IMG/VR virus record: IMGVR_UViG_3300006810_000316 | Location: 1 to 26,752 of that record | Origin: a virus | Strand: one strand, 5' to 3' | DNA length: 26,752 nt | Notes under the pieces: generated by a model | What the model saw: the letters and a program-made list of their open reading frames with translations, nothing else | The model's database searches: none | What the model was told of the DNA's origin: nothing | Shown here: in pieces, positions 6,920-24,468 of the stretch | How positions within the stretch are numbered: the first letter of the stretch is position 1 | Layout of the letters: every line of letters starts with the position of its first letter | Made by a program: the position numbers and the translations under genes

Positions 6920-7709
6920 GGTCACCCTCTAACCTAATCTCGACATATTGCTGAATATCCTCATACTCGGTCTGTAAAAACTTCCGAATGGTTTCTTTGT
7001 CCGAACCAACCTTTGCGGCCAATTGGTCCAAAGAAACTTTATCCGAACCAGTAACAAAGAAAAGAATTTGTTCCCAAGCAGATTCGGGAGACGGATTCAT
7101 GACCGCAGCCTGATAACGTCGAAACAGTTCATCTTTAGACAAATTAGATTTAGACAAATTAGACTTCTTACTGGGCAGTGGAGAACTTTCACTCTGGGCA
7201 GGGGCAGCTTCTTTGGACTCCACATTACCACAACTGCTACCATCCACTATAGAGTTCAATAAGTTAGGTGGTATATTTGAAAGAATCTCAGACCAAGGGA
7301 CAACAACCTTCAAAACAAGTCCTTCTTTCGTTGGGCCAGCAACCTCTGCTGTAACCTTAACAGGGAATTGTTCCGGCCCACTCCTCTTTCTCAAGCTAGT
7401 ATCTTTCTTTTTTGAGGTTGTTTTTTTCTTCTTCGCCACTGTTTTTGTTTTCACACCGCCAAGCAGAGTCCCTAGCTCCTGAATGAAATCAGGAGAAACT
7501 CTATGCGTCCGCTGCACATCAATTAAACCCTGATGATACTTTTTGGATAAAGGGGCGTACTCATTGAGAACGGACTCGATATCAGCACGTACTGCACCAA
7601 CCATCGAATACTTATCAAGTAAAGATTTGTAAGCAGTTAAAACACCAGCGGACTCAAGCCTAACGTACAATGCGTCAACCTTCTTCTCTTTGTCTGACTC
7701 TTGACTCAT
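6897..7709 (-). CDS. Uncharacterised protein with Lys-rich linker and C-terminal HTH-like part
   Basis: 270 residues from the ATG at 7709 (a GTG two codons upstream is possible), function not recognised. The N-terminal 90 residues are helical. Residues about 90-112 form a lysine-rich linker (KKKK and KKK runs). A beta-like part follows, with VPWSEILSNIPPNLL (about 136-150), then a serine-rich stretch containing SNLSKSNLSK. The last 60 residues (WEQILFFVTGSDKVSLDQLA, VGSDKETIRKFLQTEY) look like a winged-helix or HTH domain. The composition suggests a nucleic-acid-binding protein. Its 5' end overlaps the end of the SbcC C-half gene by 35 bases, tying it to the recombination block. Confidence 0.5.
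   Translation of the reverse strand: MSQESDKEKKVDALYVRLESAGVLTAYKSLLDKYSMVGAVRADIESVLNEYAPLSKKYHQGLIDVQRTHRVSPDFIQELGTLLGGVKTKTVAKKKKTTSKKKDTSLRKRSGPEQFPVKVTAEVAGPTKEGLVLKVVVPWSEILSNIPPNLLNSIVDGSSCGNVESKEAAPAQSESSPLPSKKSNLSKSNLSKDELFRRYQAAVMNPSPESAWEQILFFVTGSDKVSLDQLAAKVGSDKETIRKFLQTEYEDIQQYVEIRLEGDHVSASHK
7134..7163. repeat. 15-bp perfect tandem duplication in coding sequence
   Basis: tttagacaaattaga occurs twice head to tail (7134-7148, 7149-7163). Because 15 is divisible by three it keeps frame and duplicates the peptide SNLSK in the serine-rich linker of the unknown protein at 6897-7709. It looks like a slippage duplication. Confidence 0.9.
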
Positions 7710-8313
7710 TTCCACTCTTACTCACTTCAAATACTCTTGATGCGCCTATACTTAAAGAAGGACGGTTCGTCACCACAATAAACTGTACAGAAAGCGCGTC
7801 ACTCAGTAACCGTAATAAAGACCCAAGGTTTCTGACTGAACTATCGGAGTTAACCAACCTAGCAGGTTCGTCTAGTATTATCACTCCATCCGTACGGTTT
7901 GGCATCAACGTCCAAACTACAACCCGCATTGCTAGAGAAATAACATCAACAATACCGCCACCCATTGAGGAGACTGGGTCCATTTCGCGACCATCATCTA
8001 CAACAGTGATCGCAACTTCAGGTTGACCTCGTTTAACTGACTGAGTTAGTTTACATTCATAAGGTCTTTCAAAGACCGCAGTTAAAGCTTGAGAGATTAA
8101 ATCTTGAACCTCTTTCAAGGCTAATTCTCGATATGCTTGACCAACTTGAACAGCAATAGGAAGGGCCTCCGAGTGTGCCTTCTGGTCAACTTTTGCTGAA
8201 GTTAGTTGAGAAAGTTTCCCCTCTAATTCAGACTTTATGAGTTCGTGAGCCCCTTCAACTTTAGTTAAATAGCTATCGAGCTTCGCTAGACGTGAGCCTA
8301 ACGCTTCTATCAT
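7675..8313 (-). CDS. C-terminal half of split SbcC/Rad50-type ATPase
   Basis: 212 residues from the ATG at 8313, preceded by GGAG at 7 bases. An in-frame extension to 8403 has no such site and reads through the XRE gene. A short coiled-coil part (1-65) is followed by an ABC-type ATPase tail: signature SSMGGGIVDVISLAMR (115-130), Walker B GVIILDEP (143-150) and a switch strand ending VVTNRP (180-185), where the usual His is Asn. There is no Walker A and no CxxC hook. This is the half missing from the Walker A/zinc-hook gene at 9688-10806, so the two products probably join into one SbcC/Rad50 ATPase that works with SbcD. It overlaps the XRE gene by 41 bases. Confidence 0.8.
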   Translation of the reverse strand: MIEALGSRLAKLDSYLTKVEGAHELIKSELEGKLSQLTSAKVDQKAHSEALPIAVQVGQAYRELALKEVQDLISQALTAVFERPYECKLTQSVKRGQPEVAITVVDDGREMDPVSSMGGGIVDVISLAMRVVVWTLMPNRTDGVIILDEPARLVNSDSSVRNLGSLLRLLSDALSVQFIVVTNRPSLSIGASRVFEVSKSGNESRVRQREEG

Positions 8314-8512
8314 TAAATTCTCCACCCAAAAACCACTCCATAGGATACCCGGACGCCTCAGCCATACGATACAGAACAGCAACCGATGGTACTCTCCTAC
8401 CACTCATGTATGAATACAAAGCTGACAAGCTTATATTTGCACTTTCAGCAAAAGTTTTTGGAGCGCCATCTACAACTAACTTGACTCTGTCTTTAACTAC
8501 TGTAAGGGACAT
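8273..8512 (-). CDS. XRE (Cro/CI-type) helix-turn-helix protein
   Basis: 79 residues. Helix-turn-helix of the Cro/CI type at about residues 18-50: TFAESANISLSALYSYMSGR then VPSVAVLYRMAEASG, followed by the family ending YPMEWFLGG (about 56-64). The ATG at 8512 overlaps the upstream stop as TAATG. It has only the DNA-binding domain with a short tail. It may regulate the recombination operon in which it sits, which would be an unusual place for a phage repressor; a role in host gene control is the alternative. It ends 41 bases inside the SbcC C-half gene. Confidence 0.75.
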   Translation of the reverse strand: MSLTVVKDRVKLVVDGAPKTFAESANISLSALYSYMSGRRVPSVAVLYRMAEASGYPMEWFLGGEFNDRSVRLTSSEAR

Positions 8513-8772
8513 TATTCCGCTGCCATAGCTTTCTCAGCCGAAGCAACTAATGCTTCAACTTCAGCGCCAAGCTCCGCAACCTTAGATTTAAGAAGCTTTA
8601 GTTGTTCCTCTCCATCCTCTAAACTGCCTACGTCAAACATCTCTTTCAAGTTAGCAAGGGCAGCGTCAAAAGCTGCTTGGTGCTGCATAACTACCTTTTC
8701 GGCATTCATCTTAGCTTCATGTAGTTTGTTTACTCTATCTCTAAGACCTTCAAGCGAATTTATATCAGCCAC
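8512..8772 (-). CDS. Small coiled-coil protein between SbcD and SbcC C-half
   Basis: 86 residues from a GTG at 8772; GGAGG lies 6 bases before it, so I prefer it to the ATG at 8793. Almost the whole chain is heptad-like and Ala/Leu/Glu-rich (LRDRVNKLHEAKMNAEKVVM, then LLKSKVAELGAEVEALVASA), consistent with an antiparallel two-helix coiled coil. It overlaps sbcD by 8 bases. Sitting between the parts of a split SbcC, it might supply coiled-coil length or bridge the halves; this is inference from position. No family recognised. Confidence 0.6.
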   Translation of the reverse strand: MADINSLEGLRDRVNKLHEAKMNAEKVVMQHQAAFDAALANLKEMFDVGSLEDGEEQLKLLKSKVAELGAEVEALVASAEKAMAAE

Positions 8773-9691
8773 CACTATCCTCCAAATCAGCACTATATTT
8801 AAGAAGCAATTCTCTCGCCTCTGGTGAACACCCTGACCGATTTACCACATCTAAAAGAACCGTGTCGAATCTAGGAGTCTCAGAACTACTAGTAACGTTC
8901 TGCTTGGCTAACACCCCAGCAAATTCAACCAGATCTTCAGCAGGCTCTGGCTTTTTAACTACCGGTTTAAACACCTTTGAAGAGGGCTCGACATCAAACA
9001 AAATTCTTTTGAGACCTTTAGAATCAACGTCGTAAACAAAAACACCCGGCTTCAAAGCCATGTCGCCCTTTGAAGCTTTAATCCTAACAAGGGCTCCGGG
9101 GTTAACAATCTTTCTACTACCACGCTCTTTGACAAACGAGTAATGGTAGTGACCGCAGACAATCAATTCCCACCCAGAAGACTTGCGTAAATAATCGTCA
9201 GCGAACACAAAATCTTCTTGTTCACGCCATAACTTATCCATTAAAACCATCTCGTGGGTAACAAGAATATTCCTATACCCATCTAATGGTGCTGGAGAAC
9301 TAGTGTGCATATAACTATTTCCAAAAAGCGCAAAGTCTCCAACAATTACAGGATCATGACTCAATAACGTTATTGCTTTAGAAGCAACAGCAACTCCAAA
9401 AGCAGTACGATTAACAGTATCTAACGATGCGCCGTACAAGTCATGATTACCCGGCGGTGAATAGATGCCATGTGGGTACTCTTGAAAGATGGGAAGGTAC
9501 TTAACGAGTGTGCTTAAAGCAGCGTCATGGGTATCAAAAACATCACCCGTCATTATAATCGGAGCTTTGTACTCCAACCCAATTGAAAACGCAGTCCTTA
9601 ATTTACTTTCCTGCACCTTAACAAAATCATCTACGCGACGAGAAGGGGCAGAATCTCTAAGATGAGCATCCCCAATTAATACAAAATTCAT
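8765..9691 (-). CDS. sbcD: SbcD/Mre11-type nuclease (T4 gp47-like)
   Basis: Manganese-dependent calcineurin-type phosphoesterase that, with SbcC/Rad50, processes DNA ends and hairpins; T4 gp47 is the phage counterpart. All five metal motifs are visible: GDAHL (Asp8, His10), MTGDVFD (Asp50), GNHD (81-84), VTHE (His146) and CGHYH (His181, His183), followed by NPGAL (197-201), a usual ending of the fold. At 308 residues it is shorter than E. coli SbcD (400), with a short capping domain. The ATG overlaps the SbcC N-half stop as ATGA, so translation is probably coupled. Confidence 0.92.
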   Translation of the reverse strand: MNFVLIGDAHLRDSAPSRRVDDFVKVQESKLRTAFSIGLEYKAPIIMTGDVFDTHDAALSTLVKYLPIFQEYPHGIYSPPGNHDLYGASLDTVNRTAFGVAVASKAITLLSHDPVIVGDFALFGNSYMHTSSPAPLDGYRNILVTHEMVLMDKLWREQEDFVFADDYLRKSSGWELIVCGHYHYSFVKERGSRKIVNPGALVRIKASKGDMALKPGVFVYDVDSKGLKRILFDVEPSSKVFKPVVKKPEPAEDLVEFAGVLAKQNVTSSSETPRFDTVLLDVVNRSGCSPEARELLLKYSADLEDSGG

Positions 9692-10806
9692 TGGGCCACC
9701 CTTTTTGCAATGTCACGGTCTTCTTCAGAGAACGGTCTTAAACACTCACTACAATGCTCTAAATTGTCTACAACTTCTTCCAAAGCAGCAAAGGCATCTA
9801 CAAGAGAACTTTCAGCTTCTTTTAGATAATTCACCGCTGTGTCTAACTCAATCGAAAGCTTGCCAATAGAAACGACTGACCTTGAAAGGTCATCGATGTT
9901 CCTCTTGAGCAAAGTAAGAGTTTCGAGTTTAGCCTCGGCACCAGAAACATCAACCAAACCCGTAAAACGCTTCTTTGAAGAAGTTAAAGAATTGCTCGCA
10001 GACCTGAGACGTAAAAATGAACCTGCGTAGGCAGAGTAGTCACTTTTCACCAACTCTAACTCTGCAAACTTGCTCGATACAACATCCACACCTTTCAAGG
10101 CAACAGATAACCGCTCTGCCTCATTCAGGCATTTTGCCGCAGACCTATACGAGCCAATCAACATCTCCAGTGTCGATGCCGACATGGCTTCTGATTCTAA
10201 CTCTCTATATAATTCCTTACCTAGATCCACATCCGCTCGAACTGAAAGACGTGCCTCAAGAATCTCAAGTTTCGACTGAAGATCTAAAGCCTCGTCAGAT
10301 AAACGACTCACATCTTTATTGACTTGCCCACTACCGCTCTTAACAAGGCCAGCCAACTTATCTGCAAACTCAAATCCTAATAGCTCAGCTAAAGCTTTCG
10401 ATATTTGACCATCCGACATCCCGATTAAAAAATGAGAGGAAAGTTGGCTCTGAGTATTTACATCTTCAAGCCTGAGTACTGGGAGAACTTCTGGCGGGAC
10501 AGTTGTCCCTACTTCGGTGAAGGAGCTTTTAAAATCACCCACCTCAACACGATAACCATTGAATGAAGACTTTTTCTCACGCTCAACCAAACCGTTAGTC
10601 GTTCGTATACTTACACTGCAAAACTTCTTACCCCTACGAACAAATGTAGACCCTCTAGGGCGGTTAGTTACTAGCCAATTTACTGCCCTAAGAATAGCCG
10701 TCTTGCCGCTATCAGTATCCCCAAGAATGACGTTCACTCCGGGGGAAAACTCCAAAAAACTTTCCGAATGACTCTGAAAGTTTTTTATAGTGAGATACTC
10801 TATCAA
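9688..10806 (-). CDS. N-terminal half of split SbcC/Rad50 (Walker A plus zinc hook)
   Basis: 372 residues, starting with the Rad50/SbcC pattern IEYLTIKNFQSHSES and Walker A GDTDSGKT (29-36), a Q-loop around NTQSQLSS (about 117-124), then a long coiled coil (about 160-345) ending in a zinc hook CSEC (352-355). The chain stops 17 residues after the hook, exactly where a full-length protein would fold back. The signature motif and Walker B are absent here and occur in the gene at 7675-8313. The start is a TTG at 10806 overlapping the RecA stop, with GGAGG 7 bases upstream. It should act with SbcD in end processing and recombination. Confidence 0.88.
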   Translation of the reverse strand: MIEYLTIKNFQSHSESFLEFSPGVNVILGDTDSGKTAILRAVNWLVTNRPRGSTFVRRGKKFCSVSIRTTNGLVEREKKSSFNGYRVEVGDFKSSFTEVGTTVPPEVLPVLRLEDVNTQSQLSSHFLIGMSDGQISKALAELLGFEFADKLAGLVKSGSGQVNKDVSRLSDEALDLQSKLEILEARLSVRADVDLGKELYRELESEAMSASTLEMLIGSYRSAAKCLNEAERLSVALKGVDVVSSKFAELELVKSDYSAYAGSFLRLRSASNSLTSSKKRFTGLVDVSGAEAKLETLTLLKRNIDDLSRSVVSIGKLSIELDTAVNYLKEAESSLVDAFAALEEVVDNLEHCSECLRPFSEEDRDIAKRVAQ

Positions 10807-11963
10807 GACTCAGCCTCCTCTTCGCTCGCCATCTCACTGAGAGTCTTACTGGGTTTTAAGAAACGGTCTTTCACCATCTCCATTAACCACTCACGCATAC
10901 CGTCATGTGTATCTAGAACAGCCGGAAAACCTAGAGGACGAAACTTTAACTCCTCCTCATTGTAAACCGCAGAGTAGATCCCACGAGTCTGCTTCTGTAG
11001 GTACTCGCAATCACCGCCAAGCTTTTTACTGCTGCTGCCTGACATTGCCTGCCCTTCTGCAAGGAAAAACAAGTTGGCAATATCATCATTGAAGCCACCC
11101 TCGAACAACAACGGGATTCTAGCTTCAAAATCTTTAGCCCTCTCTCCCGGTATCTTGTTCTTGGTGATCTTAGCCTTAACGATATTCCCTACATGTTCAC
11201 CAGCAACTACAATCTTACCGTTTGCAACAGTGCCCAGTCGAATAGCTTGAGAAACTCCAAACTTGATACCCCAACCGCCCGGAGTCTCATCCGTGGGTCC
11301 ACCAAAGGAAGACATCTTCGTAATAATTTGGTTGATAAAAACCAACGAAGCTCGACTTTCACGAAGTGTGTCGTAAATCTTCTTGATGCCAATATGAATA
11401 GCTCTTGGCTTATCCATGGCAGTGCCCGCACGGTCTGGGTCTATGTCTCTGGAACAGGGAGAAGCAGCTATTGTATCCCACACAATAACTACCGGGGGCT
11501 TTTCCTTGCCCTTAGAGTTTAACTTCTCAAGCTTTTGAAGCGTAGCATCTATAAGCGAAAAGCCTTCCTCTACAGTCCTAGCCTCAAACTGAATCAAAGC
11601 ACTGGCGTTTAAACCAAGCTCTTTGACACGCTCCGTTGTCCAAGAGTTCTCGGAATCCAAAACAATCGCCGTACCGCCCATCTTCTGACAATTAGCAAGA
11701 ATATGTGCAGCAAGGGTAGACTTGCCCATACCCGGACGACCACTAATCTCAATCATCCTACCTAGAGGGACACCTCCATGAAGAATAAGATCCAACATTA
11801 ACAGGCCAGTCGGGACAAACCCTTGTACATCCCCACGAAGACCGTCATGAGCAAGGCTCGCTACACTCTGTTTAAACTCTTTATTGATTTCGCTAACCAC
11901 TGAACGCAATGTCTCCATTCGGACATCTAATTCAGAGGCACTCGAAGAATGTTTTTTAGCCAC
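10803..11963 (-). CDS. recA: RecA-family recombinase (UvsX-like role)
   Basis: Strand-exchange ATPase that coats single-stranded DNA. It is 386 residues. Walker A GRPGMGKST (75-83), catalytic Glu105 in DSEN, Walker B VVIVWD (158-163), the switch motif FINQI (209-213) and a DNA-binding L2-like loop with GPTDETPGGWGIKF (222-235, the counterpart of RecA's T-T-G-G...KF). The N-terminal helix and acidic C-terminal tail (EEEAES) resemble RecA. The start is a GTG directly after the upstream stop, with GGGAG 7 bases before it. In T4 the same trio (recombinase, gp46, gp47) starts recombination-dependent replication; the gene order here suits the same task. Confidence 0.93.
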   Translation of the reverse strand: MAKKHSSSASELDVRMETLRSVVSEINKEFKQSVASLAHDGLRGDVQGFVPTGLLMLDLILHGGVPLGRMIEISGRPGMGKSTLAAHILANCQKMGGTAIVLDSENSWTTERVKELGLNASALIQFEARTVEEGFSLIDATLQKLEKLNSKGKEKPPVVIVWDTIAASPCSRDIDPDRAGTAMDKPRAIHIGIKKIYDTLRESRASLVFINQIITKMSSFGGPTDETPGGWGIKFGVSQAIRLGTVANGKIVVAGEHVGNIVKAKITKNKIPGERAKDFEARIPLLFEGGFNDDIANLFFLAEGQAMSGSSSKKLGGDCEYLQKQTRGIYSAVYNEEELKFRPLGFPAVLDTHDGMREWLMEMVKDRFLKPSKTLSEMASEEEAES

Positions 11964-23811: not shown

Positions 23812-24468
23812 ATGGCAATAATAACACAAACACTAGCACAAAGACGGCCCAAACCGAAACGGACTGTTCAGGAACGCTTCATAAGCAAGATCCAACCAGA
23901 CCTAGAAACTGGCTGCTGGTTATGGGTAGGGGCGAAAGTAGGCTCAACCGGATACGGCCAATGCGCTGATGCTGTAGGTAAGCCAAGGGCCGCTCACAGG
24001 GTAAGCTGGGAACTCTTTCGAGGAGAAATCCCCAAAAACGCTTTTGTTAAACACGTAGATACGAACCAATGCCCAAAGAACTGTGTTAACCCTAAACACC
24101 TTTATGTTGACAAGGCACGAAAGAAGCCCAAGAACAACGAAACTAAGCCTTACCCTTCCTCTGTTTTAAGCAAACAACAGGTCGAGGAGATACGTGAGCG
24201 GTATAAGCCAAGATCGGAACGCACACGAATTAAGGACTTGGCTGCTGAATTCAACGTCTCCATAGTAACAGTCCGCAATATCCTTACTGGCAAAAGCAAT
24301 GGCGGTAAGAAGTTGACTAAGTCAGACGTACTGAAGATCAGAGAGAAGTACGAGCCGGAAGAGAAAAACGCCGCCTCTCGTTTAGCCCAAGAGTACGGCG
24401 TCAGCCTTAATACTATTTTGTCAGTAGCTGCGGGTAGAAGTTGGAAAGACAATAACGAGGCTGCTTGA
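23812..24468 (+). CDS. HNH homing endonuclease-like protein
   Basis: 218 residues. The N-terminal HNH_3-type domain (about 18-103) has RFISKIQPDLETGCWLW, AHRVSWELFRGEI, VKHVDTNQCPKNCVNPKHLY: the His of KHVD and the NPKHL ending are the HNH core, and Cys residues flank it. Two similar C-terminal helix-turn-helix segments follow: LSKQQVEEIRERY...IKDLAAEFNVSIVTVRNILT (about 120-160) and LTKSDVLKIREKY...ASRLAQEYGVSLNTILSV (about 168-207). These are DNA-recognition modules usual in free-standing phage homing endonucleases. It lies on the strand opposite most genes and ends two bases from the convergent repeat-protein gene, fitting insertion as a selfish gene. Confidence 0.85.
   Translation: MAIITQTLAQRRPKPKRTVQERFISKIQPDLETGCWLWVGAKVGSTGYGQCADAVGKPRAAHRVSWELFRGEIPKNAFVKHVDTNQCPKNCVNPKHLYVDKARKKPKNNETKPYPSSVLSKQQVEEIRERYKPRSERTRIKDLAAEFNVSIVTVRNILTGKSNGGKKLTKSDVLKIREKYEPEEKNAASRLAQEYGVSLNTILSVAAGRSWKDNNEAA

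Follow-up and report, generated by a model that had tools for sequence, protein, structure and literature searches.

We found that a viral DNA fragment, the IMG/VR record IMGVR_UViG_3300006810_000316 (hereafter the window, meaning the whole stretch of 26,752 nucleotides (nt), or 26.7 kb), carries the genes for what is probably a Rad50/SbcC-type ATPase of the Mre11-Rad50 (SbcCD) complex, with its chain permanently cut into three polypeptides that work with SbcD. The three are an N-half (N), a small subunit (S) and a C-half (C). This reading is supported because the gene order is conserved, S was found independently beside N and C, the three proteins co-diverge, full-length SbcC is nearly excluded from the genomes that carry them, and profile and fold matches place Rad50 first. 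The genes and their motifs, the latter read from the sequence, are:

9688-10806, minus strand: N-half of Rad50/SbcC, with a Walker A lobe, a long helical arm and a CxxC hook (372 amino acids (aa), TTG start)
10699-10722, minus strand: Walker A motif GDTDSGKT (residues 29-36 of N)
9742-9753, minus strand: zinc-hook motif CSEC (residues 352-355 of N, with C352 and C355) at the end of the arm
8765-9691, minus strand: SbcD/Mre11-type nuclease (308 aa; DAH, GDVFD, GNHD, THE and GHYH motifs)
8512-8772, minus strand: S subunit, a small two-helix protein with a turn (86 aa with its GTG start; a start at the GTG of 8775 would make it 87 aa)
7675-8313, minus strand: C-half of Rad50/SbcC, with a short coil, GGG signature, Walker B and D-loop (212 aa, ATG start)
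7954-7962, minus strand: ABC signature GGG (residues 118-120 of C)
7867-7884, minus strand: Walker B motif VIILDE (LDE at residues 147-149 of C)

An earlier, sequence-only reading of the window had proposed that the genes at 9688-10806 and 7675-8313 are complementary halves of one ABC-type ATPase, the first stopping 17 residues after CSEC and the second having neither a Walker A motif nor a CxxC. We confirmed these coordinates and motifs. Across 58 aligned N-halves, G29, G34 and K35 are invariant and Q121 is nearly so, which gives the family a Walker A and a Q-loop. C352 is likewise invariant and C355 nearly invariant, pointing to a putative CxxC hook, and in the loci measured this motif lies 1-28 residues from the C-terminus. 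Among 46 C-halves, G118, D148 and E149 are invariant and G120 is nearly so, as in a C-lobe signature and Walker B. The Rad50 switch-loop (H-loop) His is Asn in the window (VTNRP) and in two close relatives; it is kept in 38/46 C-halves, and thus in most of the family, and is missing from 8/46.

The window N-half matches AAA_23 in Pfam (PF13476, 1.7e-13), while the window C-half alone has a weak Pfam match to SMC_N and matches phrog_15167 in PHROG (1.4e-19). Searched against the Protein Data Bank (PDB), the N family profile had as its best match Rad50 5f3w (4.8e-21), which we take to be the M. jannaschii protein, and the C family profile had Rad50 3qkr_B (2.2e-17), presumably from P. furiosus. 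SMC proteins scored lower for both profiles. The AlphaFold2 model of the N-half (predicted local distance difference test score, pLDDT, 86) comprises a lobe (residues 1-131), a helix (145-281), a loop, a second helix (290-347) and the hook region, and its best fold matches are to Rad50 (P. furiosus Rad50). We rejected a conserved Gly/Pro break in the arm, as the position some 60 residues ahead of the hook showed only weak enrichment across N-halves. Together with the profile matches, this fold match bears out the proposal of complementary Rad50-type halves, and the two modelled N helices, set against about 60 coil residues in C, bear out the earlier remark that the arms are very unequal. We rejected an SMC identity on the lower SMC scores and on the presence of a CxxC hook in place of a hinge. 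The SbcD partner is conserved as well, with DxH and GHxH in 100/100 family members, GNHD in 97/100 and GDxxD in 95/100. In one locus (L098:6001-7390) the N-half is broken into two open reading frames (ORFs), one of 71 aa and one of 229 aa, which lie about 485 nt apart in an otherwise intact operon.

Relatives of the arrangement had been suspected in other phages, and these proved common. The first relative found by tblastn was Bacillus phage vB_BboS-125, in which N (ending CPLCEQTHKGGGC) is followed by an AP2 gene, a gene for a 78-aa helical protein, and C. N, SbcD, a gene for a helical protein of 94-98 aa, and C are found in Microcystis phage Mvi-JY20 and in a phage of 485 kb. Scans of IMG/VR and one genome scan yielded about 90 loci, whose layout we called with home-made profiles. 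Nearly all complete loci share one layout, in which N ends shortly after CPxC, SbcD lies nearby and S stands just before C. N ranges from 296 to 532 aa and C from about 190 to 245 aa (295-304 in two loci). In total, N, S and C are present together in 139 loci (83 after dereplication) from phages and Bacillota chromosomes. Pairwise distances among the three proteins are correlated (Mantel r 0.77, 0.63 and 0.82; p 0.001), as co-inheritance would lead one to expect. A quick tree of split and fused forms had long branches and neither supported nor contradicted a single origin.

The AlphaFold2 model of S has a helix at residues 2-47, a turn and a helix at 52-86 (pLDDT 93), and we aligned 49-55 relatives of this protein. 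No entry for S was found in Pfam or NCBIfam and no significant family match in PHROG; its model had no fold match among solved structures; no natural S+C fusion protein was found among its relatives; and a literature search returned no published account of it. S and C lie on the same strand in 83/83 dereplicated loci, and they overlap or are at most 20 nt apart in 67, with an overlap in 46. We read S as a third part of the system, and the family libraries searched do not contain it. Two loci (L083:5299-6186 and L096:7076-7990) encode a C-half with about 85 extra residues before the signature, equal to one S length, and S is present there too.

We searched bacterial genomes with S only, at a threshold of < 1e-8 for the class of Paenactinomyces (Bacilli) and < 1e-6 for the other two sets. 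In the first, S was found in 19/151 genomes and N and C flank it in all 19. In the phylum of Syntrophothermus 32 of 199 genomes carry S, as do 14 of 196 in the class of Ezakiella; N, S and C occur together in 29 of the 33 loci examined from these two sets. Among the four exceptions, one lies at a contig edge with SbcD and three read SbcD-N-S followed by a rimO-like gene. In those three genomes (L157, L159 and L162) an intact C-half is on another contig (L179-L181; E about 1e-63), so the parts persist unlinked. Many phages carry split Rad50, and so does a sizeable minority of Bacillota; the system is not restricted to phages.

The bacterial operon often follows recA(-recX), which is a housekeeping position. 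In G031 (L128, G031:C5:64000-83000) the order is cinA, cshA, recA, recX, SbcD, N, S, C, rny and ymdB, and recA also adjoins SbcD-N-S-C in L172-L176. Two further loci (L132 and L133) have a HerA-type (DUF87) ATPase upstream of the operon, L133 with an AIM24-family protein as well. This neighbour recalls the herA-mre11-rad50 part of archaeal clusters, which are arranged herA-mre11-rad50-nurA.

We then compared S-bearing genomes with the others for full-length SbcC, called with TIGR00618 at E 1e-20 or better among the three or four top-scoring candidates of each genome; the curated cut-off of this family was reached in no genome. Full-length SbcC was called in 1/32 S-bearing genomes of the Syntrophothermus phylum compared to 77/167 others (Fisher p 7e-7), in 0/14 compared to 84/182 in the Ezakiella class (p 4e-4), and in 1/19 compared to 109/132 in the Paenactinomyces class (p 4e-11). 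These differences suggest that in bacteria with the split operon the three-piece form usually takes the place of full-length SbcC. Two loci (L134 and L135) have, right next to the split operon, an ORF of SbcD size and a protein of SbcC size (1029 and 1016 aa), possibly a recent coexistence of both forms. Among phages, an AAA_23 check of 16 phage or viral records gave a single match in 14, apparently the N-half; one record had an extra sub-threshold match and Tunturi_5 had none. The sequence-only reading had named a full-length SbcC elsewhere in the genome as grounds for abandoning it, and none of the phage records that we checked, complete or long, contained such a protein; the window, for its part, is a fragment rather than a whole genome.

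Based on these data, we propose that N would provide the Walker A lobe, the ascending arm and the zinc hook, S would be a two-helix protein of 80-90 residues, and C would provide the short coil, signature and Walker B. The N and C lobes, from separate chains, would pair to form each ATPase head, and two assemblies would dimerise through ATP at the heads and zinc at the hook. Separate N- and C-lobe chains of Rad50 have been crystallised together in 1f2t, 1ii8 and 3qkr, which were among our PDB matches, so a head made from two chains is structurally possible. With the hook at the end of N, two N-halves could still share one zinc. SbcD would bind the base of the coil, as Mre11 does, and S and the C coil would pack on the N arm, filling the place that the absent descending strand leaves. 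All four proteins would together form one catalytically active complex, which in phages may process DNA ends for RecA/UvsX-dependent repair and replication and in bacteria may stand in for full-length SbcC. We rank first a placement of S as a part of the arm beside N and C, at a copy number that we leave undecided.

Several observations weigh against this reading. In Microbacterium phage Magritte, an N-half without a hook (L003:7001-8053) and a C-half (L009:284-934) lie about 93 kb apart, and no S was seen next to C. The Fisher tests treat related species as independent, and the sets overlap in a few genomes. The SbcC search can miss divergent members, as it did not list the SbcC-sized protein beside the operon in G163 (L134). 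Finally, the N arm spans about 255-475 residues from Walker A to hook, and S and C are constant by comparison, so that a single S plus a single C falls short of the longest arms.

S is mostly 75-110 residues long, and its length is uncorrelated with that of the N arm (rho -0.23). The earlier suggestion of a three-part complex fits the comparative evidence, from which we infer such a complex, but the idea of S as a length filler matched to the longer arm found no support. The shortest split forms have 255-265 residues from Walker A to hook and 194-199 from hook to signature by way of the N-tail, S and C; fused EP_H11 has 275 up and 226 down, and fused JWF 290 up. By these residue counts, the shortest split forms appear close to the arm balance of fused EP_H11, and without S they would be about 80 residues short. 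The window N exceeds the shortest forms by about 50 residues, and other forms exceed them by up to 200, without any change in S and C. It follows that S may be present in several copies, that N arms may pair distally, or that N may fold back.

Distal pairing is the basis of a somewhat unlikely alternative, in which two N-halves form a parallel distal coil up to the hook, only the proximal arm is antiparallel with C, and S is a clamp or cap at the junction. This arrangement would explain why the chains end just after the hook, why the N arm can take many lengths beside an S and a C of constant size, and why the two helices of S are joined by a central turn, but it leaves to chance that S and C balance the N arm in the shortest forms, as in fused relatives.

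We consider it improbable that S is instead multi-copy, with one S recruited per stretch of about 50 residues along the N arm, so that stoichiometry follows arm length. Walker A-to-hook distances in 62 dereplicated N-halves do fall into clusters (252-271, 300-326, 336-358, 375-383, 403-421 and 465-474) about 50 residues apart (best period 53, R 0.62; 0/2000 smoothed resamples as high), and helix 1 of S has 46 residues. However, shared ancestry may inflate this clustering, stepwise arm lengths are also known in one-chain SMC proteins (PMC5344682), and a repeat profile found no matching repeats, the number it did find not following arm length. Tandem repeats in the N arm were rejected as the source of the steps because that profile gave inconsistent counts. 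Returning to S as a part of the arm beside N and C, we would extend the reading only tentatively: many Bacillota and their phages could have a three-polypeptide Rad50 as their normal form, often with no other beside it, with S as a dedicated and hitherto unrecognised arm subunit and with length tuned stepwise by N alone while heads, S and hook stay fixed.

It is very doubtful that the ATPase is Lamassu-like, or from another defence system, rather than Rad50. The N-half weakly matches LmuB in PADLOC (3.8e-12), but its partner is an SbcD with Mre11 motifs, Rad50 is its best solved relative, the window's SbcD and S had no match in that scan (which covered N, SbcD and S), and the bacterial operon keeps its housekeeping position by recA, recX and rny. 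The truncated look of each half alone might suggest that N and C are what decay or a frameshift has left of an ordinary SbcC. This notion can be dismissed, as the halves recur in >80 dereplicated loci as distinct, intact ORFs that have their ribosome sites and catalytic motifs, and other genes, gene order and even different contigs separate the parts.

Like Rad50/SbcC with Mre11/SbcD of P. furiosus, M. jannaschii and E. coli, the split system has a Walker A, a signature, a Walker B, a helical arm, a CxxC and an Mre11-type neighbour; unlike one-chain Rad50/SbcC, it has three chains, with one break directly behind the hook and the other between S and C. It also resembles the short-armed phage recombination nucleases T4 gp46/gp47 and Achromobacter phage JWF gp43 (670 aa), which differ in being fused single chains. 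T4 gp46/gp47 is used with the UvsX recombinase. The post-hook part of fused JWF and EP_H11 is roughly as long as the N-tail, S and C of the split form together. Mre11/Rad50 fusions of the Mimivirus R555 type (PMC3175470) are likewise non-canonical chains of the same complex, but with the opposite change, SbcD being fused to SbcC. In PHROG, family 16465 ('exonuclease') is N-type and 15167 ('ATPase') is C-type, and the library does not link them as one Rad50. According to PMC7824862, SbcC/SbcD are nearly universal in jumbo phages, and the catalytic core of DNA polymerase III is split there into two standalone proteins, likewise a divided replication enzyme but an unrelated one; a term search of that paper showed no split SbcC. 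We found no description of a three-part or split Rad50/SbcC in the open-access literature, a search that left preprints and most subscription papers outside its scope.

Current Rad50/SMC models have one chain run up the arm, through the hook and back, relaying signals between the hook and the heads. If a natural form has this chain cut at the hook and a second time within the arm, an unbroken backbone would not be needed. Such a form also makes modules of the heads, the arm and the hook, which can be swapped or varied in amount, and it brings in a small arm subunit that none of the family libraries we searched contains. Split Rad50 may further explain the apparent absence of SbcC from many Bacillota genomes.

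In the window, the system belongs to a minus-strand replication module that includes a DnaB-like helicase, a primase, a DNA polymerase, a gp32-like single-stranded DNA-binding protein, a 5'-3' exonuclease and a UvsX/RecA-like recombinase. On the 3' side of the recombinase the order is N-half, SbcD, S, XRE protein and C-half, and the two remaining genes of this run are:

10803-11963, minus strand: UvsX/RecA-like recombinase (PF00154, 1.4e-30), directly upstream of N with a 4-nt overlap
8273-8512, minus strand: XRE/Cro-like protein (PF01381, 1.1e-6)

Ribosome sites precede N (GAGGAGG), S (GGAGG) and C (GGAG). Overlaps of a few bases join the recA-like gene to N, N to SbcD, SbcD to S and S to the XRE gene, and the XRE gene overlaps C by 41 bases. 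As every junction overlaps, these genes form a translationally coupled operon. The sequence-only reading had listed SbcD, the small coiled-coil protein and the XRE protein between the halves; the first two recur across the family, but an XRE gene takes this operon position in the window, L006 and L007 only. The XRE gene is a trait of the window's lineage alone; its product probably stands outside the complex, and we rejected it as a component of the system. Elsewhere in the window, a gene at 23812-24468 on the plus strand, opposite in direction to the surrounding genes, encodes an HNH endonuclease family protein, possibly a homing endonuclease.

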